DNA of 64,000 nucleotides, from contig NZ_WBOL01000003.1 in assembly GCF_008973715.1 (NCBI RefSeq), positions 186,001-250,000 on the forward strand, written 5' to 3'. Below, piece by piece: positions 46,278 through 63,488 of the stretch. How positions within the stretch are numbered: the first letter of the stretch is position 1; each line of letters begins with the position of its first letter. Under the pieces are notes generated by a model. That model was not told the origin of the DNA and ran no database searches. It saw nothing but the letters and a program-made list of their open reading frames with translations. This DNA comes from Nitrincola schmidtii. GTDB lineage: Bacteria; Pseudomonadota; Gammaproteobacteria; Pseudomonadales; Balneatricaceae. Both the position numbers and the translations under genes were made by a program.

Positions 46278-47120
46278 TTAAAAGTCGTATCGGGATAGCA
46301 TCATCTGATGAGCCACCATATGCTCTTGCATGATAGCTAGCTCCAACCTTTCCATTATTTCAACAAAAGGAAGTAATGTATCCGGTGTCTTCGCCTTTAA
46401 ACGGCTAAATTGATGCGCCTGAGCCCAAAATTTTTCTGCCTGATTTATCTTAGTAAGCAATGATTGTTCTAGGTTTTCTTCTGATAGCTTGGGAAAAATT
46501 AGCGAATCTGACTTGCTTTCTAATCCCATTAGCATACCGGCAGGGTCAAAATCATAGAACCCGATCACACATGCAGGCGGATATGCCGCTAATGCAATTT
46601 TTAGCTCTCTCGCGTCACTCTCATGACCTCGATAAATAAATAGTGGATTAGTGAAAGGTTGCTCAAATTTCAGATCATTGATAGATCTCATAACGGCGCC
46701 ATTTTCAACAATAATCACTTCAGCGTCTTCGAGTATGAGATGATCAATTGGCACAAGTAGATTTGTGCCGCGTGGTGTTATGGCGGGTCCATTGATTGTT
46801 TGTACTTCATAGCCAATAGGAGCTGCTACTTTTAATTGACCTGCAAAAACATTCTTTCTTGCAAGTTTTTCATTTATTCCTATACTCGCAACGTTAATTC
46901 GATCCTCGGGTATTGAGTTTTCTACAAGTGGATCGATACCTGTTTGATCTTTAAACCATCCTCTAAGCCCTTCCCTATCCCTTCCATTGAACCGGATATA
47001 AGAACCCACAATGTTACCAATACCTTGTTCATCATGAATTTTTTGAAAACTTTTGTTTAGAGTAGTTGCATCTTTGCCACTGCGAAGAAAGCGCTGGATG
47101 ATTTCAAACTCTCTATTCAT
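46278..47120 (-). CDS. JetD/MksG-like TOPRIM nuclease subunit of an SMC defence module
   Basis: 280 residues. The C-terminal half has the TOPRIM-like signature: Glu139 in VIIVENG, RGHESDARELK, and the acidic pair Asp190/Asp192 in GFYDFDPAG. In Wadjet systems JetD is the nuclease that cuts plasmid DNA after loop extrusion by the SMC complex (system knowledge). It is shorter than typical JetD. Start overlaps the upstream gene by 8 bp (ATGAATAG). Last gene of the minus-strand operon. Confidence 0.75.
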   Translation of the reverse strand: MNREFEIIQRFLRSGKDATTLNKSFQKIHDEQGIGNIVGSYIRFNGRDREGLRGWFKDQTGIDPLVENSIPEDRINVASIGINEKLARKNVFAGQLKVAAPIGYEVQTINGPAITPRGTNLLVPIDHLILEDAEVIIVENGAVMRSINDLKFEQPFTNPLFIYRGHESDARELKIALAAYPPACVIGFYDFDPAGMLMGLESKSDSLIFPKLSEENLEQSLLTKINQAEKFWAQAHQFSRLKAKTPDTLLPFVEIMERLELAIMQEHMVAHQMMLSRYDF

Positions 47121-48342
47121 TGCGGCCTACTTTCCGAAGAACAATATCAGATACCCAGAAGTTTCCACTGAATGTATCATCCGGTGACTCAACAAAGTGA
47201 ATATCTAAACTTGCACGCTGTTTTAGCGGTAGACCGTTGATTTCATTGAAGAGAGCCATGTACCAAATCTCTAACTCACAGTGATTGTCTAGTTTGCTAA
47301 TGTGATAAACCTTTTTAGCCGATATAGGTTCATCGGTTCCAGATAACAGCTCTAATATTTCTTGAACGACTATTATCATAGGGTTTACAGGTATCTCGAC
47401 AGCTTTTTCATTGAGCCCATTTTTTACGGGTTGTGGTACAAATTTCTCTTTTTCAGTAACCGTAAGCGTCGGTAGAGATTCAACAATCGATGCTAATATA
47501 TCTTCGTGCTCGGGATTTGCTAAATCAGGGTAGATCGGATTACATAGCCGAACTGCCCTATTTAATACAGAAGGGAGATCATTAAGATCATCTACGCTTG
47601 GGTGATAGGACTCATCCCTATCAAACTTCTCAATAAGGCAATCAACTAGCCTAGCTTTTTCTTGTTGGCGGTTGATCGTGTGCAACATGTTTATTAATCG
47701 CTCTATCGAATAACCAAGTTGCTTACGGCAATCTTCCAAAGCGCTGGGAATGAATTTTAAAAGTAGTCGTCTGAGGTCTGAGTCATCACCAGCTTTGTTA
47801 TGAAGGTCTTGGTAGTCAAAAGTTTCCAATATTGTATTGAACTCAGATGCCCGTTCTATCATTTTTCTATTTTCGATAGCTCTCAAATCGAGGTTATGTA
47901 TATGAGTGAATTCGGTATTAATATGTCTTGCATAAATAGATAGTGAGCTTCTCAAACTTTCTATTAACTGATGTCCAAAAAAAAAGGCATTCTCTAGGTA
48001 ATGATTACTATCCTCTAATGCTCCTCTGTTTTTGGCTTCACGATAACCATCAATCGTTCCTTCAATTTCTTTCCATAAATCGGCTACCGCACTGTTCGCA
48101 CTGAATCTAAGCTGGCTTCGAGTGACTACCGCCAACAGTGATGTCAGACTTTGACTTAAACGAACGGGTTCATCCATATCTATTTGCCAAGTTAGCTGAT
48201 GTTTCATCAGAGACTTGATAGCCGAACGGTTTTCTTCAGTGTCATGTAATGCTCCACCTTGGTTAAGATAAGCATCAATAATGATATCTCGGTGTTTTGC
48301 TAATGCTTGGAGAGCATCAGCAGCATCATCAATTCTTGCCAT
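47113..48342 (-). CDS. JetA/MukF-like kleisin of the SMC defence module
   Basis: 409-residue, mainly helical protein with a winged-helix-like C-terminal part. No motif is diagnostic, so the assignment rests on size, neighbours (MukE-like and MukB-like genes upstream, TOPRIM gene downstream) and start/stop coupling: its start shares the A of TAATG with the gene before it. Kleisins bridge the two SMC heads. Confidence 0.6.
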   Translation of the reverse strand: MARIDDAADALQALAKHRDIIIDAYLNQGGALHDTEENRSAIKSLMKHQLTWQIDMDEPVRLSQSLTSLLAVVTRSQLRFSANSAVADLWKEIEGTIDGYREAKNRGALEDSNHYLENAFFFGHQLIESLRSSLSIYARHINTEFTHIHNLDLRAIENRKMIERASEFNTILETFDYQDLHNKAGDDSDLRRLLLKFIPSALEDCRKQLGYSIERLINMLHTINRQQEKARLVDCLIEKFDRDESYHPSVDDLNDLPSVLNRAVRLCNPIYPDLANPEHEDILASIVESLPTLTVTEKEKFVPQPVKNGLNEKAVEIPVNPMIIVVQEILELLSGTDEPISAKKVYHISKLDNHCELEIWYMALFNEINGLPLKQRASLDIHFVESPDDTFSGNFWVSDIVLRKVGRNE

Positions 48343-48977
48343 TAGACTAGAGTACCTTGAATTTGTTGATCTCCAGATTCATCATCCAAACGCTCATGAG
48401 CTCGGATGAATGATAGTACATCGTATAAATAGCTCCATCGACCTGTCGCATTATAAAGTGATCCGGAGCTATCAAGCTTTATCAAATATCCTAGTTCTTC
48501 AAGTTTGTTTAGAATCTGGTTGATGCGGCCCTTTCCATCAGTAGCGGCAGATTTAAACAGTCTATGTCGAGTTAGATCTTCTAACGCTTGATTAAGCTCA
48601 GGTGAACTCTCGATAAATCCGAGTAATTCACTTTCTTTTACAAGCATCCCAGCTTCTATCGGCCTACCTGTGGGATGACAGTCCCTCGCCAAACGCATCC
48701 AACGAACTAGGGGTTCAATTTCACCAGCAAACAGTCTAAAAACACCTCTGATTGCTCGTTTTGCTTCTGCTTCATCGGCATCTAAATAGGCACAATAGTA
48801 TCCTTTACCATCGGAGGTGACTCGTACAGCGCGTTCTATTTTTAAAAGGTAATCGCCTACCTCTCGCAGATTCGATTCGCTTTGCATGAAAGCGAACTCC
48901 CCTGCTAAGGTTTCATGACAAATAATTTTGTCAGATAATAGAGCTTGAACAGTTCGACTAAATAATTGTGAATCCAT
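48342..48977 (-). CDS. JetB/MukE-like subunit of the SMC defence module
   Basis: 211 residues with tandem winged-helix character (GRINQILNKLEELGYLIKLD). Size and context fit the MukE/MksE/JetB accessory subunit that binds the kleisin. Assignment by context and fold impression. Its ATG shares a base with the SMC gene stop (TAATG). Confidence 0.6.
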   Translation of the reverse strand: MDSQLFSRTVQALLSDKIICHETLAGEFAFMQSESNLREVGDYLLKIERAVRVTSDGKGYYCAYLDADEAEAKRAIRGVFRLFAGEIEPLVRWMRLARDCHPTGRPIEAGMLVKESELLGFIESSPELNQALEDLTRHRLFKSAATDGKGRINQILNKLEELGYLIKLDSSGSLYNATGRWSYLYDVLSFIRAHERLDDESGDQQIQGTLV

Positions 48978-51900
48978 TATTTCGCCTCCCCCACAACCAG
49001 TTCAGATATTCGCGATGATAACTCTCTTTTAATACCACTCACCTGTTCTTTTAAATCCCTTACTCCTGATCGACGGTCAATAAGCTTCCGATGCTTGAAA
49101 AACTTAAGTAAATTAGGGTCTGTACTCGGAAATGCTGAGAAGCAATAAATACCAGCTTCATCAAACATTGCGAACACCCTCGCTACATTTTCGGGCGATA
49201 GGGCAGCAAGTTCATCAATAGGCCAGTGAAGCGATATATTTAGATTTGGGCACAGATAACGTGCCATACCTTTGAAAATTACTAATATTGCAAGATATGA
49301 GATACCGTTTGAGCTCACTGCATCAAGTTCGGCTGCACTAGTAGCATGAGCCTTTCGTCCATTCTCTTCTAAGCAGATCCGCAGTCTGATAAGAGAGTTA
49401 ATATCACTTTTTATTCGTGCATTTTGAAGTGCATCGTTAGCCACCTGAATAGACTCCAACAGCACATTTGGGGGGAGTTTAAAGTCTCGATTCTCACACC
49501 AATCTACCCATTGCCGATTAAACTCAGACAGCTTTCTCCAATAGTCTCCTTCTTTCACTACAGATGTCACCTGTAACTCGATATTCGTCAAGTTTTCAAT
49601 CCGTTGATTAGCGTTGATATTTTTTCCAAGATGGCGCGATACTCTATCAACTTCTTTGTTCAGTGAATTGAGGTTGTCATGATACTTCGAAAGGCTATCT
49701 CCAACAGCTCGGACTTGTTCAATGAGTAGATCTCTCAAATCTGGCACATCATTATCTAATAAGTGTGCAAGATCATTTGGTTGGTTCAACCTAAACTCCA
49801 CATCAAACTCATTAAGTCCTGAAACCATTTTGCGCTGGTCAAGTAACATCTGCCAAGCTTTGTAGATACGAGAGTTTACATATTGTTGAAGTATTTGCTG
49901 AGCGATACTCACTCCATTGAGTACGTCTTCACAAAGTTGAGATTCCCTTTTTATATGGCGCTCAAGGTCTAAGATGAGTGCCCCAAACGGATGTTGTGGC
50001 TCGATGATCTCGTCAATTAAAGGACACTGATTGACAAGACTCGTACCCTGTCGAATCTTGTCTTCCAGCTCTTTATGTTTACTTGTATCAATAGAAAGCT
50101 GCTGTTTAAGTTTGTTGCGTTTTTGAGAGTAATATTTGTTGTGACTGTTAATATTTTCCTGAGCTTCGTTACGAGCCGTCTCAGATTCTCGTAGCTGTTC
50201 TTCAATAGTTTCACGTGTATCCCAACGGACTTTGGACCAATGGTCAAATTTTTCGATCTCAATCCAGTAGTCTTTAATCTCATGCACAAGCTCTGTCTGA
50301 TGATTCACTTTTCCACGCAATTCACGAATATCATCTGGATTCATTCCATTCTTTATACAGTCTTCGGAATAACGTTTTTCAATGCGTTTAAGTTGTTCTA
50401 TGAAATCACTCTCTGCTTTTTCTAAGGATTCTTCTAGTTGCTCTTTTTTGTGTTGAATTCTCTGACATTCCATCTGGTATTTAGCGTTGATCTCTTGATG
50501 ATGTTCACTAAAGCGATGATTAATTTGGCTACGTTTTTCATTAATCTGAATTTCAGTCTGAATGATTTCGGCAGCGATTCTATCCATTTCATTTTTCGCA
50601 GCCCTTTGATCTGCTATAGCATTTTGCTTAGCCGTTTCTTTAGCTTTCTTTTTCTCGTTCCGCAGATTTCTGAGGCGACTTGTAAGCTCATCAATATCGT
50701 GACGAAGCGGTTTGATCTTATAATCAAGCTCTTTCAGCTGAGTTTGTATAGCGCGTGCTTCGGCTTCTCGTTCTACAATTGTTTTTTCTGCATTTCTAAC
50801 AATCCCCTCTTGCTGATCCAACCGCTGAGCGAGTGTTTCATTATCTGCACAATGATCGGGGATATCTATTTTTTCTAGTAACAGTGACCAGCCAAAGACA
50901 GTATCAGTCGAACCAATATACTCCGGCTCAAGATCTGATCTTAGGAGCAGGTCTTTATTAATAATACGACCGATCGACTCTGTCCACTTTAGATTTTCTC
51001 TCCTAAACTCAGATAATAAAGTTCCGTCATTAGGATAGGCTATAGCTTGAAGGGAGTTGAGCTTCCCTCGCTCCTTATCAGTATTGATTTTCGCTTGATC
51101 AAGCAAATCAAGTGCACTAATACGCTGTTTTTTTATAAGATCAAGTTCTAATTCGAGTATCTTCAGAGATTCACGTTTTTTATCAATTTGTTCTAGACAG
51201 GTGAACTCTGAGGATTCAATATTGGTTAATTCTTGAATATCTAGGGAACGCTCTATGTAAGTGTTGGCTGTAACTTTTGCTGTCGCATGATTAGAATTAA
51301 GTTCTTTTAATCTCTGAGAAAGTTCGCCGCCATTTAAAGAATCGATAGCTTTCTGCTTATCTTGTGATAGAACTTGTAAAACTTCAGATTTTTCTTGTTC
51401 GCCTGCTCTAAGTTCTTCAACTAACTGGTTGCGCTGGATATTAATTTGATTCTGAATCTGATCGCGATGTCCACGAGCTTTGTACTTCTCCGTGTCACGC
51501 TCACCTTCTAAGTTTTTAACTTGCTGTGTTAACTGATCCAGCTGTGTTTTGAGGTTATCAAGACGTTGTTGCTCTTGTTGAAGATTTGAGTATTTGGCTT
51601 TTTTTAAGTGAATGTTTTGCTCATTAATCCAAGCATCATGGTCTTTATAGATTGCTTTAATATCTCTATCTAATTGAGATGTTTCACTTTTAAGTGCTTG
51701 ATATCGATTCCTGAGCGTCTCAGTTTCAGTTTCATATTTCTCTTTTTCTTCCACCAGTTTTGATTCAGTTACTTTCATACTAGTGGCTAGCTGAGATAGT
51801 TCATTATTTGCCTCGACAAGTCGAGCTTTGAGTTGACTCGCAGTGTCGTCACGATTCTTAACTACAAGCAGCCGAGTGTTATTGTTTTCAATGCAATCTC

Positions 51901-52657
51901 TAATTCTGCCTTCGGAAGCTGTGAAGTCCCTTATGGCTGCTATATCTTGAATAAGTGTTTTATCTTTTAGGTGCTCTGGACGAGAATTGATATGGATGTC
52001 TTTGAACTGTGTCTCTGCGATCATTTTTTTTAATCGCTCAAACATGTCTTTTCTACGCAATATAGAATAGCTCATTCGATCTAGGTGGCTCATGCGATCG
52101 TTAGCACCACCTATACAATATTCACGAGCCAATGCCACATCACCTGCATTACTACCCTTTCGCTGAAGGAGGTTACGATCATTTTGGATAATAGATCGGT
52201 AGTCTGTAATCGTATCCAACTGCTTGCTTATTGTTATATTTTGGACTCTTAAATCGTGAAATATATCGCTGATTGAAACACCTGATTCTAATAAAGGCTT
52301 GATCTCTGGACTGAATAATGTCTCTTCTAAGCCCCCTCGTACAAAACGATAAATCACTTTAGATCCTGAGGTGTGTCTATACATAACGACTAGTCTAAAG
52401 CCATCCTCTCGCTCATGTTCGAAAATAATAGCGCTCGACTGCTTTGGAAGGTAAAAATCCAGAAAAGAGTCCTTATCTGCAATTTGGTCTACAAGCAGAC
52501 TTGGCTCAGTACCATAAAATATAGGGATTAAATTAAGTGCCGATGTTTTGCCAGCACCGTTTCCACCACTGGCATTTGAATGACCATCAACATCGAACTT
52601 TACTGTCATATTTGTAAAGTATGAGTTGTGAAGCACGATTCTTTTTAAACCCAACAT
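48977..52657 (-). CDS. JetC/MukB-like SMC ATPase of the SMC defence module
   Basis: 1226 residues. Walker A GGNGAGKT at residues 31-38, then about 900 residues of coiled coil in two arms with a hinge-like break around ITDIPDHCADNE-type sequence near residue 600, and a C-terminal head with the signature SSNGISYLAIL and Walker B LHWPIDELAAL. The split ATPase at both ends and long coiled coil define an SMC-like motor. ATG 52657 is preferred: the TTG at 52690 sits next to no good ribosome site. Follows Res by 60 bp. Confidence 0.8.
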   Translation of the reverse strand: MLGLKRIVLHNSYFTNMTVKFDVDGHSNASGGNGAGKTSALNLIPIFYGTEPSLLVDQIADKDSFLDFYLPKQSSAIIFEHEREDGFRLVVMYRHTSGSKVIYRFVRGGLEETLFSPEIKPLLESGVSISDIFHDLRVQNITISKQLDTITDYRSIIQNDRNLLQRKGSNAGDVALAREYCIGGANDRMSHLDRMSYSILRRKDMFERLKKMIAETQFKDIHINSRPEHLKDKTLIQDIAAIRDFTASEGRIRDCIENNNTRLLVVKNRDDTASQLKARLVEANNELSQLATSMKVTESKLVEEKEKYETETETLRNRYQALKSETSQLDRDIKAIYKDHDAWINEQNIHLKKAKYSNLQQEQQRLDNLKTQLDQLTQQVKNLEGERDTEKYKARGHRDQIQNQINIQRNQLVEELRAGEQEKSEVLQVLSQDKQKAIDSLNGGELSQRLKELNSNHATAKVTANTYIERSLDIQELTNIESSEFTCLEQIDKKRESLKILELELDLIKKQRISALDLLDQAKINTDKERGKLNSLQAIAYPNDGTLLSEFRRENLKWTESIGRIINKDLLLRSDLEPEYIGSTDTVFGWSLLLEKIDIPDHCADNETLAQRLDQQEGIVRNAEKTIVEREAEARAIQTQLKELDYKIKPLRHDIDELTSRLRNLRNEKKKAKETAKQNAIADQRAAKNEMDRIAAEIIQTEIQINEKRSQINHRFSEHHQEINAKYQMECQRIQHKKEQLEESLEKAESDFIEQLKRIEKRYSEDCIKNGMNPDDIRELRGKVNHQTELVHEIKDYWIEIEKFDHWSKVRWDTRETIEEQLRESETARNEAQENINSHNKYYSQKRNKLKQQLSIDTSKHKELEDKIRQGTSLVNQCPLIDEIIEPQHPFGALILDLERHIKRESQLCEDVLNGVSIAQQILQQYVNSRIYKAWQMLLDQRKMVSGLNEFDVEFRLNQPNDLAHLLDNDVPDLRDLLIEQVRAVGDSLSKYHDNLNSLNKEVDRVSRHLGKNINANQRIENLTNIELQVTSVVKEGDYWRKLSEFNRQWVDWCENRDFKLPPNVLLESIQVANDALQNARIKSDINSLIRLRICLEENGRKAHATSAAELDAVSSNGISYLAILVIFKGMARYLCPNLNISLHWPIDELAALSPENVARVFAMFDEAGIYCFSAFPSTDPNLLKFFKHRKLIDRRSGVRDLKEQVSGIKRELSSRISELVVGEAK

Positions 52658-52717
52658 TTTAGATACCAAGTCCTTTATGAACGAAAACAATTTACATAGC
52701 TTAAAAACGGACCAAGA

Positions 52718-55441
52718 CTATTGATCCTGACACTCAAACTTTGCAATAAAACTACCCAGTGTATTTGCTTCTTTCACCTCGTCATGGGGTATCAACAAGT
52801 ACTTCCACTCCTTGCCACCATTTGCTTTCAGATAGTTAGATGCATTTAGACACCACTTAACACCCGCTTTCATTTTTTCAGTTACTTCTTCATTCCATGA
52901 TTGGTCCTGATTTCGGTGCTGTGCGCTTTTTGTTTCGATCATCAGCACATAATCGTTTGTTTCGGCCACGAAGTCAGGCACGTATTCAGGATGTTCGGTG
53001 CCTCTTTTGTAGTACATTTTGAACTGACCTTTAGCTGGCTTGAACCATTTGATGGCATCACGTTCAAGAATAATGGAGAAACGCCTCTCGGTGTCCGAAT
53101 CGAACTTCTGAATAGGATAAAGGCACTTGCTAAAGCCACCAAAGAGCATCTGCTTAATTTTACTGACGTCTGAAACTGTATCTCGGTAGCTTTTAAGGTC
53201 CCGACCTTGGGCAGCTGTGTATGAACAGTCTTTCAATGTTGTGAAGCCACTACGCACATCTACTTCATATTCAGTTGCTTCTTCATAAAAATGCTTATCC
53301 ATTTGAGCATGAATCAATCGGGCGATAGCATCGCTTTGGTTCTGTAAAATATTAATGACATCTTTTTCATCGTTAACTGTACTTAAGCACTCTTCAGCTT
53401 GCCTAGCCAAGTCGTAGAGCAGATCAGCATGTTCATCGTAAGGAATATCATCATAATCAAACAATTTTTTGAGTATGTAATTCTCTTTAATTGGCTCGTA
53501 GTTACCTGAGCCGCCCTCGCCTATTTCTGTCTGTTGATTGGTTTGTAGACTTTGGCTAACTAAGGATCTTTCTTGTGGTCTGAGTCCTTTAATTCCCGTT
53601 AAATCTAACGTAAAGGTTCTATAGCCACTCGTAACAGTGCCTTTAGGAGTCACTATAATACGTGGAATATCGATGGTGTTGTTCACCACTAAAGCTGTCG
53701 TCTTAGCAACAATATCTGCTATATCAACCTGCTGCTCATCTTCAAGCAAGGACTGCTGCCCTTGGGTAAGATGCTCTTTAACCGCCAGAATCATGGCTTG
53801 CTGCAAGCCTTCTGACTGAAGTGATTGACTGGTAGGCGCTTGCTGTGGCTTTGTTTGATATTCCTTGATAATTGCTAACGCGGCTTTCGCCGCCTTTTTC
53901 TCAGGTTCAGATATAAACAGCGGTTGCGTGGGTAGAGTTATCGAATATTGTGTGCCAGCGCTTCCTGTTGTCTCACCTCCTGATACCAGCGCATTAATAT
54001 TCGAGCTGACTTGGACACTTTCGGTTTCTATCGCATCCTCAGGATGATCAAGAATCAGCTGTTTTAGGCGCAGTGGATTATCAGGGTTGTTTGCTTCATC
54101 CACAATTTCTTGAAATTTGTCATGGGCCACAATGCTCAAGCGATCCACGGGCTCTACACCAGTACGCTTGCCGTAAGGAAGACGCAGCCCTCGGCCAATT
54201 GACTGTTCAATTAGGGTTCTAGCATTAGCAGCGCGAAGCGGTACGATGGTATAAAGATTGGTAACGTCCCACCCTTCCTTTAGCATATTGACGTGAATAA
54301 CAATTTCGGTAGGCTCATCACTATTTTCTACATTTAGCAATGCTGCTACGGTTTCCTCCTCCTTACTGCTACTATCTACCTGAATCACTTTACCGAGATA
54401 TTTGCCATCAAATATCGCTTCAAGCTTCTCTTTTAGGGCTGTTGCATGTGTGGTGTCGCGTGCTATCACCAACATAAAAGGTTTAACAACACGAACATCA
54501 CTTTCGTGAGCATAGGTGATCAACTCCACTTTCGTGGCTTCGTGTAAGCGAATACCATCCATTAATTTGATGGTTTCCAGCTCTTCTTTATTATACTGGC
54601 TGACATCAAAGTTACGCTGTGTGACAACGGCTGGCTCTTTAACAAAACCGTCATCCATAGCACGAGCTAAGGGATAGTCGACCACGACATTTTGAAAAGG
54701 CGTTGTACCTCGGCTAGTTTCCACGAAAGGTGTTGCTGTTAGTTCAAGCCCCAGTATTGGTTTAAGCTCATTCAATGCCTTAACACCTGCACTGGCACGA
54801 TAGCGGTGTGACTCGTCCATCAGCAATACTAGGTCAGGTAAGCTCGCTAAATAGTTGAAATAGCTATCACCAAGATATTCCGATAACCGCTTAATCCGAG
54901 GAGCTTTACCCCCTCGAACCTCCGAATTGATTTTGGAAATATTAAAGATATTCACGGTGACAATCTGCTGATCGCCTAATAAGTCTCTGGAAAGCTGTGA
55001 GCCCCTTTGCTCATAGTTATCGCCAGTGATTACAACAGGGGCTTCGATAGCAAACTCAGATATGCCTTTGAATACATACTTGGGTGTTCCGGGGCTAAAA
55101 TCGGCAATCAGCTTTTCATAAATAGTCAGGTTGGGTGCGAGAACAAAAAAGTTTTTGATGCCGTGCGCAAGATACAAATAACTGATAAATGCACCCATCA
55201 AGCGCGTTTTTCCCACACCTGTTGCTAATGCAAAACACAGAGAAGGAAACTCACGTTCGAAATCTTGCAGGTTTGGAAACTCGGCTTTAATAGCATCCAA
55301 CATCTCAGACACATCATGCTTAGGATCGAGTAACCTATCACCTGTGGCTTCAATTGCTGTAGCCAGAGCTTCTAGTGACTCACGTTGAGGCGCACGCAAA
55401 CTCAAACGACCTGAAATACTGTTAATGATTTTCTTATCCAT
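52718..55441 (-). CDS. Type III restriction enzyme Res subunit (DEAD helicase-nuclease)
   Basis: 907 residues. Helicase motifs: Walker A ATGVGKTR (Lys78), DESH at 209-212, TATPF, and motif VI QSIGRGLRLPYG. A C-terminal PD-(D/E)xK nuclease has PD at 822-823 and ETK at 836-838, the canonical layout of type III Res. Cuts DNA after ATP-driven translocation or diffusion when two unmethylated sites are engaged (family knowledge). 15 bp after mod. Confidence 0.92.
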   Translation of the reverse strand: MDKKIINSISGRLSLRAPQRESLEALATAIEATGDRLLDPKHDVSEMLDAIKAEFPNLQDFEREFPSLCFALATGVGKTRLMGAFISYLYLAHGIKNFFVLAPNLTIYEKLIADFSPGTPKYVFKGISEFAIEAPVVITGDNYEQRGSQLSRDLLGDQQIVTVNIFNISKINSEVRGGKAPRIKRLSEYLGDSYFNYLASLPDLVLLMDESHRYRASAGVKALNELKPILGLELTATPFVETSRGTTPFQNVVVDYPLARAMDDGFVKEPAVVTQRNFDVSQYNKEELETIKLMDGIRLHEATKVELITYAHESDVRVVKPFMLVIARDTTHATALKEKLEAIFDGKYLGKVIQVDSSSKEEETVAALLNVENSDEPTEIVIHVNMLKEGWDVTNLYTIVPLRAANARTLIEQSIGRGLRLPYGKRTGVEPVDRLSIVAHDKFQEIVDEANNPDNPLRLKQLILDHPEDAIETESVQVSSNINALVSGGETTGSAGTQYSITLPTQPLFISEPEKKAAKAALAIIKEYQTKPQQAPTSQSLQSEGLQQAMILAVKEHLTQGQQSLLEDEQQVDIADIVAKTTALVVNNTIDIPRIIVTPKGTVTSGYRTFTLDLTGIKGLRPQERSLVSQSLQTNQQTEIGEGGSGNYEPIKENYILKKLFDYDDIPYDEHADLLYDLARQAEECLSTVNDEKDVINILQNQSDAIARLIHAQMDKHFYEEATEYEVDVRSGFTTLKDCSYTAAQGRDLKSYRDTVSDVSKIKQMLFGGFSKCLYPIQKFDSDTERRFSIILERDAIKWFKPAKGQFKMYYKRGTEHPEYVPDFVAETNDYVLMIETKSAQHRNQDQSWNEEVTEKMKAGVKWCLNASNYLKANGGKEWKYLLIPHDEVKEANTLGSFIAKFECQDQ

Positions 55442-55456
55442 GTCTTACTCCATTTC

Positions 55457-57175
55457 TTAAAACAGGTCGTCTTGTTGTGGCTGTGCGTTTACAGAATCAG
55501 TCTGTGCCATAGGTAGATTTTGCACATTCAAACTGTAATCATCATGTGCCCACTCGCAGTGCTTCAACACAGCCTTCGGCAGCTTTTTAATGGTGAGATT
55601 GGCAAAACGATCTGCGTTACATCGAAAGGCACCACACATCACTAGCAGAGTTTTATCGCTACCAACGTCCTCGCTAATTAATTCCAATTGCTCTAATGAG
55701 AGATTCTGTGTGGTCACATAGATGAAATCTGTTTCAGTCGAATAGCCATGTTGCCACCAAAGGGTATCAGAAGGCGCATAGGTAAAGCCCTCTAATTTGC
55801 AGACCGCTTCGGCCAGCATTTCGGCGTTATACTCTTTATTAATGATCCAGTTATCCCATTGGTCTTTTTGTAATAGAGATGGTGCAAGCTTGTAGTATCG
55901 GAAACCGCCTCCGCCTTGCCAGTTAACCGATTTGGATACACCATCTTGATCTACTCCATTAATTACTTGTTTCAATCTAGGGACAATGTGAGAATGGCAA
56001 TGATCACCAAGTTCGATAGTAATCCAGCGACGTTTTAATTTGTGAGCAACCGCAGCAGTTGTGCCTGATCCAGCGAATGAATCTAATACCAGATCGCCCT
56101 CCTCTGTGCACAACTCTAAAATACGCTTTAGAAGATATTCTGGTTTTTTTCCTTTGGGAAACTTAACTCCACCTTCTTTATGTAAGTTGTTGGAAAGTAA
56201 ATCATCCCAAAGATTGCTTAATGGTTCGCCAGCCACTAAGCTACCATCAATTTCCTTCAGTTTGTCTTTGTAAAATAGAATTCTTTCACCATTCTTAAAA
56301 TACATGTTTGAATGGTTATCTCTTTCTAAAAAAAACACTTTGTTGGGCTCTTTTTTTGAGGCATCTATTGCATCTCTGACGTTTTGTCCAACTGAATTAT
56401 AATCAGGTCTAGCAGTACGAATTACTCTCTCAGGATAGCGCATTACAAAATTTTCAAGTTCTTGCTCGTAGCTTGCCCCCAGTGCTTTTTTAAGCTGCCT
56501 AGACTGTAACCCTAGTTCTTTTGCAACCGCTTGGTTTAAAGGTATACTTTTCCAACTTTCGTAATTTTCATAATAATTTTCTATAAATTGAGAATATCTT
56601 GTATCTCTTTCTTTTGCTGTGAATAATCTATTCGGTATCCAATCTTTTTTACTTTTGGCGTACACAAGAATAAAATTTGTTGTGGTAACTAGACCCGGAT
56701 TAATTGCTTTATGTCCTGTTACAGATCCTTGCTTAAAAGTTACAATTGAAACTCGATTTTCCCTTCCAAATACTTCATCCAATAAGACAGTTAAATATGC
56801 AATTTCATTATCGTCAATATGTACAAATAGTGAACCATCATGTGATAGTAGCCGGTGAATATGCTTTGCTCTTGCATACATCAGATTGAGCCAAATTGAG
56901 TGCTCTAAACCATCATCATAGTTCTCGAAGGCTTCACCTGTATTAAAGGGAGGGTCGATATAGATACACTTTACTTTTCCAGTGTACTCTTGCTCCAAGG
57001 CTTTTAAAGCCAACAAGTTATCACCAAAAATCAATTTGTTATCAAAAATATCGTTTTCTGTTACTTTCTGGCTAGCATGATAGGAAAGCGCAGGATCTTC
57101 CAGCAGGATGCGGGGTTCCAGTTTAGGCCGCTTGTCTTTTCCTATCCACGTCAATTCGAGTTTAGTTTTTTTCAT
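55457..57175 (-). CDS. Type III restriction-modification Mod methyltransferase
   Basis: 572-residue beta-class amino methyltransferase: DPPFNTGE (catalytic, Asp74) precedes the SAM motif FAGSGTT (367-373), the order of beta-class N6-adenine enzymes. The ~240-residue target recognition region between them is divergent, as expected. The ATG overlaps the stop of the ATPase gene (ATGA). Confidence 0.92.
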   Translation of the reverse strand: MKKTKLELTWIGKDKRPKLEPRILLEDPALSYHASQKVTENDIFDNKLIFGDNLLALKALEQEYTGKVKCIYIDPPFNTGEAFENYDDGLEHSIWLNLMYARAKHIHRLLSHDGSLFVHIDDNEIAYLTVLLDEVFGRENRVSIVTFKQGSVTGHKAINPGLVTTTNFILVYAKSKKDWIPNRLFTAKERDTRYSQFIENYYENYESWKSIPLNQAVAKELGLQSRQLKKALGASYEQELENFVMRYPERVIRTARPDYNSVGQNVRDAIDASKKEPNKVFFLERDNHSNMYFKNGERILFYKDKLKEIDGSLVAGEPLSNLWDDLLSNNLHKEGGVKFPKGKKPEYLLKRILELCTEEGDLVLDSFAGSGTTAAVAHKLKRRWITIELGDHCHSHIVPRLKQVINGVDQDGVSKSVNWQGGGGFRYYKLAPSLLQKDQWDNWIINKEYNAEMLAEAVCKLEGFTYAPSDTLWWQHGYSTETDFIYVTTQNLSLEQLELISEDVGSDKTLLVMCGAFRCNADRFANLTIKKLPKAVLKHCEWAHDDYSLNVQNLPMAQTDSVNAQPQQDDLF

Positions 57176-58833
57176 TGTTCAGTTACTTCCAACTGTAATT
57201 CTATGGATTCAGTTTCACGTCTATGATCGGTAAAAAATGCTTTTCTCCAACACGCAAATAGTGCTTCAGCCATGATGGGCATTTCGCTTTCGAACTGCTG
57301 TTGTGTGATGTTTTCTCCCATCCAACGTGCTTTTTTACCTTTGTCTTTGCGAGTGCAATTGGCGATTAATAGCGGAGGGTAGTAGTCTTCCAAACCATTG
57401 CAGGGCAGTAAAAAGAGTTGATTGTTTCGCTCTAAGTGTCCGTTATTTTTCTTAAAAGCATCAAATCTTGACTGCTTTTCAGGATCAGGTTTGTCACAAA
57501 GTACAATCAGACGGTCACTGTATATAGGTTTAGCATTCAGAGGTACGAAGACTCTGTTTAATCCATTCATACTTTGACTCTGTGCTTCGTCATCCCCGTT
57601 TGCTGCCATAATATGAATATCAGGCTTATCTGTATAAAACCGACTAATGATACTGTTATAAAATTTTACCTCAGATGGCCCTTCAACAATTAGGAAGTTT
57701 GCTGGCAGAAGTATGTCGGCTGGGCTACCACCCAATAGATCATAAACTACAGTATGCTTTTCTGTTCTAGTGATTTTTTCGATGCTCGTCTGGCGGTCAT
57801 CTTTGCTCACACGAAAGAATGTTTGACTGGCATCCTGATCACCGTCAGCAATCATGACAGACGAATGAGTGGTTATAAAAACCTGATCATTGCCATCACC
57901 AGTGGTTAAATCCAATAACGACTTCTTCAAGTGTCGCTGACCTGTAGGATGTAAATGCAACTCTGCTTCATCGATGAAAAATATAAATGATCGCCCTAAG
58001 GCTTCACTTCGTCTAAAGTCAGCGTGTGCTTTTATGATGGATAGCATTAAGGCACGTTGCATGCCATCGCCCTTATCATCGGCCTTTGTAACAACCCCAT
58101 CATCTAGCTCTGTGTTATAGTTTTTTAAAAAGTCGTCAAAAGCAGGTGTTGTAACACTAAAATTAATCTTGGTGCAATCTGGAAACTGTTCCTGTAGATA
58201 TTTGGATACAGAATCACTAAGGCCATTCAGTGCCTGACGAACTTTTGAATCCTGATCGCCGAACAACCTTTCAAACTGCGCTACAAAAGCTTGATATTCA
58301 GTGTCTTTCTCCAGTGTTTCTGCTACGAGCCCGCTGAGCATCTGCCCGATAGGTGTAGTATTTTTGTAAGCAGATACATCTTTGAAATTTTTAGTAGCTT
58401 CAATGAATTCAAAACGTGGTATACCGTTGTTAAATGCAGAGTCTGCACCCATTGGCTGTTTTTTCCATGCACTTTTTGACTGATCATAAATCAATCTATC
58501 TTTACTACTTTTTGATGAGCGTTTAACACGCATCTCATCTGAATCGCCAAGGATACTTCTGAGTTTTTTCTGGTTTTCTTCATTGGTTATATGAGCAATA
58601 CCAGCTTGAACATCACCGAACACAATCTCAACTTCCACTTCTTCATCTGAACTTGCATCGCAATGTCGTATTTCGAAAATGTCACCCTTTCCGTTGTAAA
58701 ACCATTCGATAGCTTCAAAAAAATTCGATTTGCCGTGATTGTTTTGTCCAACGAGGATGTTAAATTTTGATGGGGTTAGAACTACATCTTTTATTGAACG
58801 AAAGTTTTTTATGAGTATTGCTTTTATTTTCAT
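57172..58833 (-). CDS. OLD-like ATPase with TOPRIM nuclease domain
   Basis: 553 residues. N-terminal ABC-type ATPase with Walker A GQNNHGKS (29-36) and Walker B IDEAELHLHP (287-296); C-terminal TOPRIM with Glu384 in LIVEGPSE and Asp447/Asp450 in LCDKPD. This is the overcoming-lysogenization-defect (OLD) nuclease layout. Start overlaps the SNF2 gene stop (ATGA). Its insertion between a SNF2 helicase and mod is not part of ordinary type III restriction. Confidence 0.85.
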   Translation of the reverse strand: MKIKAILIKNFRSIKDVVLTPSKFNILVGQNNHGKSNFFEAIEWFYNGKGDIFEIRHCDASSDEEVEVEIVFGDVQAGIAHITNEENQKKLRSILGDSDEMRVKRSSKSSKDRLIYDQSKSAWKKQPMGADSAFNNGIPRFEFIEATKNFKDVSAYKNTTPIGQMLSGLVAETLEKDTEYQAFVAQFERLFGDQDSKVRQALNGLSDSVSKYLQEQFPDCTKINFSVTTPAFDDFLKNYNTELDDGVVTKADDKGDGMQRALMLSIIKAHADFRRSEALGRSFIFFIDEAELHLHPTGQRHLKKSLLDLTTGDGNDQVFITTHSSVMIADGDQDASQTFFRVSKDDRQTSIEKITRTEKHTVVYDLLGGSPADILLPANFLIVEGPSEVKFYNSIISRFYTDKPDIHIMAANGDDEAQSQSMNGLNRVFVPLNAKPIYSDRLIVLCDKPDPEKQSRFDAFKKNNGHLERNNQLFLLPCNGLEDYYPPLLIANCTRKDKGKKARWMGENITQQQFESEMPIMAEALFACWRKAFFTDHRRETESIELQLEVTEQ

Positions 58834-61712
58834 CGTACACTCCATTGTAGAGTAAATAATGTTTCTGCCTGAGTCTTCCTGTTTAGCTTACCTTCAAGTG
58901 CCTCAATCAATGCCTCACGACGATCATCAACCTCATCTTGTTTGTCAAAGAGTTCACGTCGGTTTTTGTTGCGTTGACTTTCCAGTACTTTCTGCTGTTT
59001 TTGTAGAGCGAGCTTTTCTTCTAAAGTGACCGATACCTTGGCATCACGGCGTACCTGTTTGATTTCTTTATCGAGTTCTTTGATCGATTGCTCCAGCCCT
59101 TCTTTTAGATCATCGGCCCAACTATCAAGCTTGTCTACTTCCTGCTCGAAAAAATTGAGATTTCGTTCGTTAACCGATTTTTCAATCTGATTGCGTTCTG
59201 CTTCTAGGATTTGATCAAGCTGCCTATCTGAATTAGAAGGCTCGGCTATCTTAAGCTCTTGTTGGAAGTCTCGCTCATAAGCCGATAGTTGCATCAGTTT
59301 TTGCACAACTTCTGCGGGGATGTGGTTGCCTTGATTATCAAAAGCGGCAAACAGCAAGTATTCCTCACAACGCTCTAAAGATTCGATACTGAATTTTTGT
59401 AGCCGAAGAGTTCCTGTCAGACCAATTAAACTTTCAATAACTGAAACCTTGGCATTATGAGCAGAATAATCAAAGATCAGTTCCGCTGGTGGCAGTAACT
59501 CACGGTTAATAGCTTGTTGCAGCACCCATTCCCCTAGTGGAGCTGAGAGCCTGTAGCGATGGGCATTCGCCAGTGTGTCCTCATCATTATGCTTGGTTCC
59601 ACGTTTGTGAAGCTGGTAAAACCCTGTCTGAACCTGAGGGATGGATGCGCTTAACTGAAAGCTATGGTTGCTTGGATTAAAGGTAGCAAGATTCTGCAAT
59701 TCGTGCTGTGTAAGTATCCAAAACCATCGCCCTACTTTATCGAGCCTTTGCTCGGCATCATTTAGCCGCAGTTTTAGCAGGTCATGAATATCCTCATCGA
59801 AGTTTTCTAGCAAGAGTTGTCGAGTGGCTTGCATCTTCTCATTGATATCGGCTCCCAACTCAAGCTGTAGCAGTTTAAATGCCGAATCAATCTCTTCAGA
59901 TCTGCGGCAAGTAGCATAAATCGCTTGGATACGTTTTTCAAAGTCTAAACCAGATTCTATGCTACCTAGGACTTCATCAGATGCGCCGAACACTCCGTCA
60001 AATAGATGAAATTTTTCTGTGAGCAGTTCCAGTACGCGTTGATCCGCTTTGTTAGACTCATTCAAAAAATTGATGACAACCACATCAAACTTTTGGCCGT
60101 AGCGATGACAACGGCCTATGCGTTGCTCTACCCTCTGTGGGTTCCAAGGCAAATCGTAGTTGATTAACAGTGAGCAAAACTGAAGGTTAACCCCTTCTGC
60201 GGCTGCTTCTGTGGCAATCATTATTTCTGCGTGATGCTTGAAGTGATCAATCAATGCTGTGCGCCGATCAATCTGAGGCGAACCGCTTATTTTGTCGCTA
60301 TCTTTATTTTCATCAAGCCAGCGTTGATACACTTCTGTTGCTTGAGGGTGATTGTTAGAACCACTGAACGTCACTATTTTGTCTGCAAAGCCATTAGCTG
60401 CGAGATAGTGGTTGAGATATTCCTGAGTACGTTTAGACTCGGTAAAGACAATGACTTTGCGCGGGGCACCCATCGCATCCATTTTATCGAAGCCCTGACC
60501 CAAGGCTATTAAGAGGGCTTTAGCTTTACTGTCTGTTTCGATAGCCTTGGCCTTGGCGATATACAACTTGATTTCACTTATTTCGTCATCAAGCAATTCA
60601 AGATCTATATCATCATCAGATATAGTCGAGTCATCCACTTCTTCAAGGTAGTCTTGCTCAAGATCATCCTCATCGACTAAGGTAGCTACTAGGTCATAGT
60701 CACAGCTATTGTGCTCTTTAAGGGACTCCAAGCGCTTTAAAATGGTTTCCAGCGTGTACATGACAGCATGAGAACTGGATGCTAGAAGTTTCCGCAGAAT
60801 CAAGCCAGTTAAATGCCGTTGGCTACGAGGAAGTGCATAGCTTTGATCGCGCTCTAGTAAGGCTGAAATGCCATTGTAGAGATCTTGCTCTTGTGTTGTT
60901 GGCCTAAAGGGAACAGTCAGTGTCTGGCGCTGTGTGTAGCGTACATACTCCAATACGTCACGCCTCAGCGTGCGATGTATAAAGCCCTTTAATCGAGTTT
61001 TGAGTTCAGCAACTGAGCTTCCACCCTGAATATAATTTTGGCGAAAAGTTTTATCATCACCAAATAAGTGTTCGTCAATAAGGGTCGATAATCCATACAA
61101 CTCAATGAGAGAGTTTTGTAGCGGTGTTGCCGTCAACAATAATTTTTTGCGACCAGACAATGCACGTTTGAGTCGTTGACCCATATTGTTACTGGTACGA
61201 TGCGCGTTTCTCAACTTATGTGCTTCATCAATAACAGCTAAATCCCAAGGTTCTACCAGTAATTGATCGTCGAGCCGAGCAGCATAGTGATAAGACATGA
61301 TTATCACTTTCTTACCTGAAAGCGGGTTATACACCCCTTCTCTTTGTTGGTTTTTCCAAGTTTTCGCATCCAGTATCTGCGAAGGTAAGTTGAATTTATC
61401 CAATAACTCTTGTGCCCACTGCCTACGTAACGATGCAGGACAAATAATCAGAAGTCTACGGCGTCTTTCAGCCCAGTATTGCGATAGCACCAAGCCTGCT
61501 TCAATGGTTTTACCTAAACCAACCTCATCAGCAAGCACTACACCTTGACTTAATGGATTATTTAACGCGAAAAGTGCTGCGTTAATTTGGTGAGGATTGA
61601 GGTCGACACTGGCGTCAAATAACGACTGAGACAGACTATCAACACCGCCTGAAGCATGTCTTATTGTCAGTTCATGAGCAAAATATTTGGCTTGATAGTC
61701 AGTTATTGGCAT
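58830..61712 (-). CDS. SNF2-family helicase/translocase of the extended type III module
   Basis: 960 residues. N-terminal motifs ADEVGLGKT (61-69), CPASLRRQW, IDEAHKLRN (161-169) and LTATPLQNS; C-terminal helicase motif QRIGRCHRYGQ around residue 550; then a long charged coiled-coil tail (residues ~820-940). It belongs to the SNF2/RapA-like group, as seen in DISARM DrmD and other defence loci. Nine bp after the GmrSD-like gene. Confidence 0.88.
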   Translation of the reverse strand: MPITDYQAKYFAHELTIRHASGGVDSLSQSLFDASVDLNPHQINAALFALNNPLSQGVVLADEVGLGKTIEAGLVLSQYWAERRRRLLIICPASLRRQWAQELLDKFNLPSQILDAKTWKNQQREGVYNPLSGKKVIIMSYHYAARLDDQLLVEPWDLAVIDEAHKLRNAHRTSNNMGQRLKRALSGRKKLLLTATPLQNSLIELYGLSTLIDEHLFGDDKTFRQNYIQGGSSVAELKTRLKGFIHRTLRRDVLEYVRYTQRQTLTVPFRPTTQEQDLYNGISALLERDQSYALPRSQRHLTGLILRKLLASSSHAVMYTLETILKRLESLKEHNSCDYDLVATLVDEDDLEQDYLEEVDDSTISDDDIDLELLDDEISEIKLYIAKAKAIETDSKAKALLIALGQGFDKMDAMGAPRKVIVFTESKRTQEYLNHYLAANGFADKIVTFSGSNNHPQATEVYQRWLDENKDSDKISGSPQIDRRTALIDHFKHHAEIMIATEAAAEGVNLQFCSLLINYDLPWNPQRVEQRIGRCHRYGQKFDVVVINFLNESNKADQRVLELLTEKFHLFDGVFGASDEVLGSIESGLDFEKRIQAIYATCRRSEEIDSAFKLLQLELGADINEKMQATRQLLLENFDEDIHDLLKLRLNDAEQRLDKVGRWFWILTQHELQNLATFNPSNHSFQLSASIPQVQTGFYQLHKRGTKHNDEDTLANAHRYRLSAPLGEWVLQQAINRELLPPAELIFDYSAHNAKVSVIESLIGLTGTLRLQKFSIESLERCEEYLLFAAFDNQGNHIPAEVVQKLMQLSAYERDFQQELKIAEPSNSDRQLDQILEAERNQIEKSVNERNLNFFEQEVDKLDSWADDLKEGLEQSIKELDKEIKQVRRDAKVSVTLEEKLALQKQQKVLESQRNKNRRELFDKQDEVDDRREALIEALEGKLNRKTQAETLFTLQWSVR

Positions 61713-61721
61713 CCCAGATAC

Positions 61722-63488
61722 TTATTCCTTAGGATTAAAGCCATAATGATCTTTCAACTTGCTAATAACAGCATTATGGTTAGCTTCAAGCTCAACCATT
61801 GTCCAATTTTGATTCTGCAAAACCCTTAGTGAATTTGGACATGTGCTGATGCGTTTTTGAAAGTACCTAACTTTCTTATCAGAGAAATCTAGGTTACCTT
61901 GAGATGTATTCTTCTTTGTAGTGATCAGTACCAAGTTACCTAATCGGTGTGTCCATTGCTCTCTTTCTTCTTTAGTGAAATCTTCGAACCATTTGCTATT
62001 AGCACTTGGATTTTGAGGAAGTACATGCTCCACAGAAAGATAATGCAAGGACATCCGTTGGCTATGGTCGGCATAGAGGTAGTCTAGCTTCAGAAGAAGG
62101 TATCTTGTGAATCTTCGTCCATACACGGCAGAATTAATTGCTCGACAAAATCCATCCTCATCGAATTCAAATGGATTTATTTGATCCAAAAGATGATCGG
62201 CAGTATCAGCCGCTTCAATCGCACGAATAATATTATTCATCCGGTCAATACGTGCTGTTGGTGAATACTGTGCAATCCAATCAGAGGATAGCTGATTGTC
62301 CAATTTTATTAGAAATTCAAGAATACGATTATGTCCGAATCGATCAATATATCTCATAAGTGGTGGAAGCCAATCAGATGATGGAAGACCTATCAACATA
62401 ATTTGAACTAGATTGTCGAACTCGAATGTGTTACCAGTTTCTCTGTGATTGTCACCACCCAAGAGCTGGTCATAGTGCTTTAAATATCGCTCGATGAGTT
62501 TGAATGTCTCTTTACCCTTTGTTAAAGATGGCTTTTTTAACAGCCCTGTAGTCTTTTCTTTTTCCTTTGGGTTGTATATTTTATGTTCAAACTCATCTAA
62601 TAAATTTAGCCGTGCTTTTTCTTTCAATAGAATTGTACGTATGTGGTTAAGGAAGCGGTCGAAGTCATCACCAAGTTCGCCTTCCGCCTCTTCCCATAGC
62701 TTAGCATAGCGATCTTTTTCACTGTCTTCAGTTAATGCACCGAGATTAGTCGATTTCAAAATATCGCTGTTTCGCAAAGGCATTCCACGGTCATTCAGAA
62801 TTGTAAACAGACGAAAAGCATCATCAAGATTTTCTGTGGCAACGTAGATCAATAGGACGTTTTTACGAATGAAGCTGTAGAAGTTCGATAAAACAAAACT
62901 GGTATTAGTATCATCGATCAGTGATTTGAGATCTCTTCTTATCTTAAGTACTGCACTGGCCATGTTTTTGACAGATGGATCTGGGCTTTTGGTTGTTAAA
63001 GTTTCTAGTACTGCCGCGTCGTCGGTTCCACCCTCAAGTTTAATATGATTATCGACAAAATCTTGCACCTCTGGACGGATAGCGAAGATGATTCGAGACC
63101 TCTCTGGGACACCATCAAAATCATTTCCTTTCTGAAAAATTGCTTTTTGACAAGCATCCTTTAGGTCAGGGTTATTTGAGAGATCACGAATACAGGCAAA
63201 AAGCAGGAACAATGTGGTCATGCGTTGTTGACCATCAAGCAGGTCATTTTCATCAAACTTCTGTCCGGGGGTGCTTCCGGCACGTTTTGACTGGTATACA
63301 AATGAACCTAAAAAATAATCTTGGTCTGGTTTTTCATTAAGGGCAAATACAAGGTCATCAAGTAGGTCGTCGATTTGATCATCTCCCCATACATAGGGAC
63401 GTTGATACTCTGGTACTCGGAACCACATATTACTGAAAATATCTTTAACGAAAATTTTCTCACTCTTGATCTCATGTGTTCCAGACAT
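61722..63488 (-). CDS. GmrSD-type DUF262/DUF1524 restriction nuclease
   Basis: 588-residue fusion of a ParB-like DUF262 domain (VPEYQRPYVW at 25-34, DGQQRMTTL at 85-93) and a DUF1524 His-Me-type nuclease near the C-terminus (VEHVLPQNP, then LGNLVLITTKKN). The single-chain form resembles GmrSD type IV enzymes that attack modified phage DNA. AAGGAATTACC precedes the ATG. It begins the tightly packed minus-strand array. Confidence 0.88.
   Translation of the reverse strand: MSGTHEIKSEKIFVKDIFSNMWFRVPEYQRPYVWGDDQIDDLLDDLVFALNEKPDQDYFLGSFVYQSKRAGSTPGQKFDENDLLDGQQRMTTLFLLFACIRDLSNNPDLKDACQKAIFQKGNDFDGVPERSRIIFAIRPEVQDFVDNHIKLEGGTDDAAVLETLTTKSPDPSVKNMASAVLKIRRDLKSLIDDTNTSFVLSNFYSFIRKNVLLIYVATENLDDAFRLFTILNDRGMPLRNSDILKSTNLGALTEDSEKDRYAKLWEEAEGELGDDFDRFLNHIRTILLKEKARLNLLDEFEHKIYNPKEKEKTTGLLKKPSLTKGKETFKLIERYLKHYDQLLGGDNHRETGNTFEFDNLVQIMLIGLPSSDWLPPLMRYIDRFGHNRILEFLIKLDNQLSSDWIAQYSPTARIDRMNNIIRAIEAADTADHLLDQINPFEFDEDGFCRAINSAVYGRRFTRYLLLKLDYLYADHSQRMSLHYLSVEHVLPQNPSANSKWFEDFTKEEREQWTHRLGNLVLITTKKNTSQGNLDFSDKKVRYFQKRISTCPNSLRVLQNQNWTMVELEANHNAVISKLKDHYGFNPKE

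Follow-up and report, generated by a model that had tools for sequence, protein, structure and literature searches.

A SNF2–Mod–Res locus of Nitrincola schmidtii, probably a three-component restriction–modification system with an embedded exchangeable defence gene

The stretch of 64,000 nucleotides of the Nitrincola schmidtii genome analysed here (contig NZ_WBOL01000003.1, positions 186,001 to 250,000; hereafter the window) carries four open reading frames (ORFs) on its minus strand, which encode in this order a SNF2-type translocase, an OLD-family ATPase, a type III-like DNA methyltransferase (Mod) and a type III-like restriction protein (Res). Comparison with related loci indicates that this locus is probably a three-component restriction–modification (RM) system, composed of SNF2, Mod and Res, with an embedded and exchangeable second-line defence gene, here OLD. 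An earlier note, made from the letters of this DNA, had described four co-oriented genes of these families joined by two ATGA overlaps; this description was confirmed, the overlap of SNF2 and OLD requiring that OLD starts at residue 5.

In type III RM systems, mod encodes a beta-class methyltransferase with a DPPY-type motif before a FxGxG-type motif, and res encodes a superfamily 2 (SF2) helicase with a PD-(D/E)XK nuclease. The best PADLOC models for Mod and Res of the window were MTase_III (690 bits) and REase_III (655 bits), respectively. The motifs of Mod (DPP at 74–76, then DSF.GSGTT at 365–373) and of Res (G77-K78-T79, D209-E210.H212 and PD 822–823...E836.K838) are intact and at least 95% conserved among 35 and 32 sequences, respectively, window included. 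Mod contains a variable (specificity) region at about amino acids (aa) 150–325, with a mean column conservation of 0.15–0.39 in aa 151–325 compared with 0.62–0.88 in aa 1–150 and 0.55–0.84 in aa 351–550. For SNF2, the motifs D62-E63-V64-G65-L66-G67-K68-T69 and D162-E163-A164-H165 were invariant in 25 sequences, and the best PADLOC model was DrmD (678 bits), far above HmaA (171 bits).

To define the surroundings of SNF2, 105 non-duplicate loci were compiled from 7 of 50 plasmid records, 18 of the 22 genomes of the host's order with a match, 76 of 80 genome-contig loci (the 80 being kept from at least 552 confirmed SNF2-relative stretches), 3 of 4 E. coli loci and the window. Duplicate genomes (L056, L057, L115, L124), loci at contig ends (G033, G154, G246; 3 of the 22 SNF2 genomes) and an E. 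coli plasmid copy with insertion sequences after SNF2 and no methyltransferase or Res annotated downstream (L178) were left out. The core genes were located with six-frame profiles seeded from the first loci seen. SNF2 reached at least 600 bits in 92 of the 105 loci; the 13 loci below this value were left out, and two of them (L125 and L131) do carry a methyltransferase and Res. Both partner genes adjoin SNF2 in 69 of the 73 loci that were testable, i.e. with at least 6 kb available downstream: they lie downstream of SNF2 in 67 and upstream in two (L071, L108). The same terms applied to a separate set of viral contigs, of which 29 of 79 loci were analysed (L181–L208, L214), gave methyltransferase and Res in 14 of 17. 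The permuted order, with Mod–Res upstream of SNF2, was seen in L071, L108 and the viral locus L196.

In a sample of 293 genomes from the order, 22 carry SNF2 (E up to 1e-100) and 10 carry the Res family of the window (Res_A, E up to 1e-60), each of these 10 together with SNF2; the two genes are adjacent in nine of these genomes and lie on different contigs in G033. Class B Res was found in seven genomes, six with SNF2. As judged from these neighbourhoods, the conserved core of the locus is SNF2–Mod–Res, in agreement with the earlier proposal of an enlarged RM-type system in which SNF2 is a conserved part. Occurrence of the SNF2 and ATPase genes apart from mod–res, which the earlier note had named as an argument against its reading, is rare for SNF2 (4 of 73 loci lack one or both partners), whereas the ATPase gene is dispensable to the set.

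The similarity of SNF2 to DrmD raises the question of a degenerate or variant class 1 DISARM that has lost drmA and drmB and had its methylase replaced. DrmD models are indeed the nearest to SNF2, yet SNF2 stays under the cut-offs of both NCBIfam models (678 versus 950 and 292 versus 610 bits), a methyltransferase and Res accompany its relatives as described above, and PF09369 (MZB, formerly DUF1998) has no match in the genome at E 0.001, a search which gave matches in 8 of 14 control genomes. This explanation is therefore very improbable, and DISARM was rejected. BREX was rejected as well, with no match to PglZ (PF08665) in the genome at E 0.001, so that the earlier statement that the locus is neither BREX nor DISARM stands.

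SNF2 is widely distributed. Titles of the genome-contig matches listed name Pseudomonadota, Bacillota, Bacteroidota, Planctomycetota, Actinomycetota, Spirochaetota, Nitrospirota, Acidobacteriota, Verrucomicrobiota and candidate phyla, and 32 of the 50 plasmid records with a match are conjugative plasmids. An annotated phage collection gave no match at 1e-60. Of 5426 complete E. coli genomes, 251 contain DNA resembling the SNF2 gene of the E. coli plasmid locus L031, two of them covering at least 80% of it; in E. coli L176 a chromosomal SNF2 copy without cargo adjoins a tRNA-Leu gene. A short helix-turn-helix (HTH) gene of 45–160 aa ends near the SNF2 start, upstream, in 11 of 69 loci, and was not found in the window.

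The 69 complete loci revealed a variable slot in this core. At least 250 additional nucleotides (nt) lie between SNF2 and the methyltransferase gene in 45 loci and between the methyltransferase gene and Res in 16. First-slot content shares the strand of the operon in 44 of 45 cases, the remaining one being undecided, and it is separated by at most 60 nt from SNF2 in 34 of 44 and from the methyltransferase gene in 37 of 44. The contents of both slots were identified with Pfam, PADLOC and NCBIfam on representatives and by BLAST for other members. The families comprise AIPR/AbiU, Schlafen AlbA_2 with HATPase, Rad50-like ATPases, Abi_2, Fic, SIR2 with HerA, AAA_21 with DUF4276 (HEC-01A/B models), the YhcG nuclease (PDC-S02), RhuM (PDC-S05; second slot), a RecD-like helicase, GmrSD, a 615-aa protein kinase, DUF6880, DUF2130, a sigma-factor-like protein and a BRO-N protein. 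Further slots hold IetAS (E. coli FORC_043; IetS 1206 bits), a Dsr2-like sirtuin (480 bits versus a cut-off of 1400) and a PtuA/PtuB-like, i.e. Septu-like, pair (119 and 56 bits versus cut-offs of 500 and 150). AIPR (10 loci), Schlafen (8) and AAA_21 (6) are among the primary labels, and the slot space of six loci received no family (label 'unk'). An E. coli relative shows the order HTH-SNF2-Abi-AIPR-Mod-Res, and in the slot of a Salmonella plasmid whose SNF2 is 98% identical, Abi stands together with an IS256. By these assignments, unrelated genes, many of them from known anti-phage families, occupy the SNF2–Mod interval or, less frequently, the Mod–Res interval.

The closest comparison came from N. 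tapanii, a species of the same genus, in which SNF2 and Res are each 83% identical at the protein level, and Abi_2 and AIPR stand where the window has OLD. The SNF2 genes are 73% identical in DNA up to window position 58837; no DNA match follows across the cargo, and similarity restarts at 57178, 3 bp ahead of the Mod ATG. In this sole pair compared at the DNA level, the alignment indicates a cargo difference with gene-precise edges. Mod of the two species is 74–94% identical in aa 1–100 and 401–572, 58% in aa 351–400 and 16–44% in aa 101–350, and Res shows a dip to 44% at aa 451–500. A FastTree tree built from the 69 SNF2 proteins requires at least 35 changes of primary cargo label (41–48 in 200 shuffles; minimum possible 17), or 36 when two Fic labels are kept apart, and 10 changes of Mod/Res class (23–31 in shuffles; minimum 2). 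The cargo distribution resembles the shuffled pattern more than an inherited one, without being random.

The earlier note had expected a four-protein system, and OLD might accordingly be a dedicated fourth subunit, with all four proteins in one complex. The ATGA overlaps that link SNF2, OLD and Mod and the intact motifs in the ATPase half of OLD would fit such a complex. The distribution of OLD contradicts it: OLD (E up to 1e-40) occurs in one of the 293 genomes, the window's own, compared with 22 for SNF2, and by BLAST it is the best match for no slot protein in the other 68 complete loci. The nearest relative moreover has Abi_2 and AIPR in the slot, and many loci dispense with cargo altogether. 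A fourth-subunit role is thus improbable, and a fixed four-gene system was rejected. The comparison rather identifies OLD as exchangeable cargo, the locus-specific content of a variable slot. As OLD is not conserved, the conserved unit consists of three proteins plus optional cargo.

A serious rival, doubtful on balance, is passive co-expression of independent defence genes: the slot would be a landing site in a defence island, and its cargo hitchhikers profiting from the operon promoter. Cargo indeed includes relatives of genes acting alone (IetAS, Dsr2, SIR2-HerA, Septu), loci without cargo are frequent, and other SNF2-linked Mod–Res operons also hold Fic, Schlafen or GmrSD. The strand bias (44 of 45), tight spacing, gene-precise edges and recurring families suggest selection for position; the same features would also follow from selection for co-expression alone.

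Several further observations weigh against a three-component RM system with embedded second-line genes. Two of the 73 testable loci have a methyltransferase only (L122, L134) and two have neither partner (L051, L104), as do three of the 17 viral loci (L197, L203, L207). Because the seed sequences of the profiles came from neighbours within the very loci studied, detection of the methyltransferase and Res is sensitive to the types first seen. SNF2 pairs with three methyltransferase/Res classes, and class C Res adjoins it in just 4 of 21 genomes. Neither slot holds cargo in 21 of the 69 complete loci; cargo is therefore an option, and the core must be able to function alone. The non-random distribution on the tree (35 changes versus 41–48 in shuffles) implies that cargo is also inherited. 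The TOPRIM site of OLD is doubtful, its C-terminal half having diverged from P2 Old, and cargo may act independently rather than respond to RM failure.

With respect to the classes, SNF2 exclusivity holds in the sample for class A Res, nearly for class B and not for class C. The class B partners of the one locus inspected (L031; 1046 and 1120 aa) matched N6_N4_Mtase with 78 bits and ResIII with 33 bits, and this Res had no NCBIfam model match. In ten of the 17 remaining class C loci examined, a SNF2-like gene distinct from this SNF2 stands upstream (nine measure 1068–1123 aa, and one is a 576-aa fragment at the start of a contig). Mod–Res is thus accompanied by two SNF2 lineages. This second lineage was seen upstream of class C Mod–Res in L271–L277, L279, L280 and L283, some with Fic, Schlafen or GmrSD cargo; in L272, the sole locus tested, a DUF4391 gene follows the SNF2-like gene.

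The best PADLOC model for the OLD protein was Old (216 bits). Its ABC ATPase half is in good order, with GxxxxGKS at 33–40 and Walker B at about 289–299. An intact OLD-family TOPRIM catalytic site consists of E...DxD; in the alignment with P2 Old, E388-G389 aligns and the first Asp of the P2 D-C-D is Leu. Of the earlier designation as OLD-type ATPase/TOPRIM protein, the ATPase part is well founded (Walker motifs, AAA_15, Old model), whereas the TOPRIM part is weak. An AlphaFold model based on an alignment with six viral homologues had a mean predicted local distance difference test (pLDDT) value of 36, was unusable and supports no claim. At 1e-20, the annotated phage collection yielded P2 Old as the only match to OLD (27.7% identity over 74%); relatives were found neither on plasmids at 1e-30 nor in the viral-contig scan.

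For the preferred three-component system, Mod would mark host adenines at an asymmetric site, and Res would cut unmodified incoming DNA by means of its motor and PD-(D/E)XK nuclease. SNF2 would act for Mod and Res as a third, obligatory motor, translocating along, or remodelling, the DNA or protein roadblocks. OLD may serve as a backup that fires once a phage disables this first line, in analogy with P2 Old and with PrrC and PARIS guarding RM. P2 Old kills cells with inhibited RecBCD, and its annotation states that it blocks growth of phage lambda. Restriction makes DNA ends which RecBCD degrades, and one can speculate that a phage blocking RecBCD to survive restriction would thereby trigger OLD. 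It is from these analogies that we infer a guard role of OLD.

A bolder conjecture, which we regard as rather unlikely, is that SNF2–Mod–Res forms a distinct bacteria-wide restriction class, in which SNF2 as obligate third subunit monitors restriction and licenses an interchangeable plug-in effector; such systems would be re-armed by gene-precise cassette exchange, and their specificity re-set by exchange of the Mod region. If SNF2 is obligate, an RM class present in many phyla and on conjugative plasmids has a third core protein outside type III schemes. The slot amounts to a naturally assembled list of genes that merit combination with restriction, in which the poorly understood Rad50-like ATPases, RhuM and DUF6880 (each recurring in slots) and DUF2130 and the 615-aa protein kinase (each seen once) become candidate anti-phage effectors. 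Related chassis with different cargo make the guard or backup hypothesis directly testable.

Table 1. Features of the locus and its immediate neighbours (positions in the window).
Feature	Position	Strand	Remarks
SNF2/RapA-type translocase	58830..61712	-	960 aa; constant core component; SNF2-rel_dom + Helicase_C (Pfam)
OLD-family ATPase (P2 Old-like), slot 1 cargo	57172..58833, alternative start 58845 (557 aa)	-	AAA_15 (+ AAA_21) (Pfam)
Mod, beta-class N6/N4 methyltransferase, MT_A type	55457..57175	-	572 aa; N6_N4_Mtase (Pfam)
Res, SF2 helicase + C-terminal PD-(D/E)XK motif, RE_A type	52718..55441	-	907 aa; ResIII (Pfam)
ATGA stop/start overlap SNF2-OLD	58830..58833	-	requires OLD start at second ATG, residue 5
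ATGA stop/start overlap OLD-Mod	57172..57175	-	
GmrSD-like (type IV) restriction gene	61722..63488	-	stops 9 bp upstream of SNF2
Wadjet/Mks-like four-gene SMC module	46278-52690	-	begins 27 bp past Res

The features are collected in Table 1; the gap between Mod and Res measures 15 bp. Promoter-like (41 versus 42.6 in shuffles) and terminator-like sites (16 versus 13.3) are at chance level, so the operon limits are unproved; one terminator-like site lies at the Res end (52727–52709). The GmrSD-like gene is possibly an extra, non-core operon member. The SMC module encodes a DUF3584 JetC-like protein of 1237 aa, proteins of 211 and 409 aa and a DUF7281 protein of 280 aa, whose stretch GFYDFDPAG we take to be a TOPRIM/TopoVIA-like motif. 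PADLOC Jet models gave a weak match to the JetC-like protein and none to the other members, and neither the DUF7281 nor the DUF3584 protein had a match in PDB sequence searches; the module is possibly an unclassified Wadjet subtype. Beyond the window, a Tn7-like transposition module stands beside the defence island (locus L055, about 67258–72284 by continued window numbering), with a TnsA-like gene, an rve/Mu-type (TnsB-like) transposase gene, a 341-aa ORF and a 518-aa ORF, the last without Pfam match. An Mrr nuclease and a NYN-LOTUS protein are located between the island and this module.

Among known systems, the locus resembles type III RM in its beta-class Mod with a variable specificity region and in its Res with ResIII helicase and PD-(D/E)XK motif. 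Two genes suffice there for restriction at head-to-head asymmetric sites, whereas the present loci add a near-constant SNF2 translocase and a slot for cargo. MADS combines a methyltransferase with an accessory ATPase and a kinase, its proteins including MAD2–MAD8. Two relatives recall it: the small HTH gene of E. coli L175 barely passes the MAD1 model (82 versus 80 bits), and the slot of L117 holds a kinase related to MAD6 (279 versus 460). When ten window proteins were compared with the NCBIfam MADS models (MADS1, 2, 3 and 6), the sole match was OLD with MAD3, at 25.5 bits versus a cut-off of 420; SNF2, Mod and Res of the window and of L175 matched no NCBIfam MADS model, and the MADS2 model had no match in the genome. 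Membership in MADS is not supported by these models. NF047744, considered as a further model, proved not to be a MADS model. A MADS3-like locus was noted in Pseudomonas (L179/L180).

Excerpts of PMC12458937 describe, for class 1 DISARM and ARMADA, a DrmD/RapA-like SNF2 protein beside a DNA methyltransferase, as in the window, but together with a YprA-family helicase and a PglX-like methyltransferase. For BREX and Hma, passages of PMC12839542 report a RapA-like SNF2 helicase, an adenine methyltransferase, and OLD/TOPRIM and other nucleases embedded in the loci. The window differs from these in having no PglZ and in having type III-like Mod and Res in place of the DUF499 ATPase or PglX. Hma is defined, in passages of PMC8565338 and PMC12839542, by the DUF499 ATPase HmaC and the HmaB methyltransferase, both absent from the best 25 of 127 PADLOC families for OLD and the best 25 of 57 for Mod; membership in Hma is not supported by these listings, though conceivable. 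A type IIG system with a SNF2 gene upstream, Pin17FIII, is described from P. intermedia (excerpts of PMC5608340). A limited search of open-licence papers yielded no description of the SNF2–Mod–Res core or of its variable slot.

The window OLD differs from P2 Old in its diverged TOPRIM part and in its location, an RM operon instead of a prophage. Embedded defence genes as such are already known from type I RM and BREX loci. According to excerpts of the respective papers, AIPR was reported in RM operons in 2008 (PMC2292703), followed by Abi/HEPN genes in 2013 (PMC3710099) and, for BREX and Hma-like loci, by backup effectors in 2026 (PMC12839542), cases of a second system embedded in a type I RM locus are on record (PMC12629846, citing a 2024 preprint by Payne), and PrrC (in EcoprrI) and PARIS are guard genes for RM, proposed to fire when RM is inhibited (PMC12707154). 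What the locus shares with these cases is a toxin-like gene or a second defence gene within an RM operon or next to it (PMC12707154, PMC12629846). The cases described in these excerpts are type I loci or separate systems, whereas here a SNF2–Mod–Res chassis accommodates many alternative modules.

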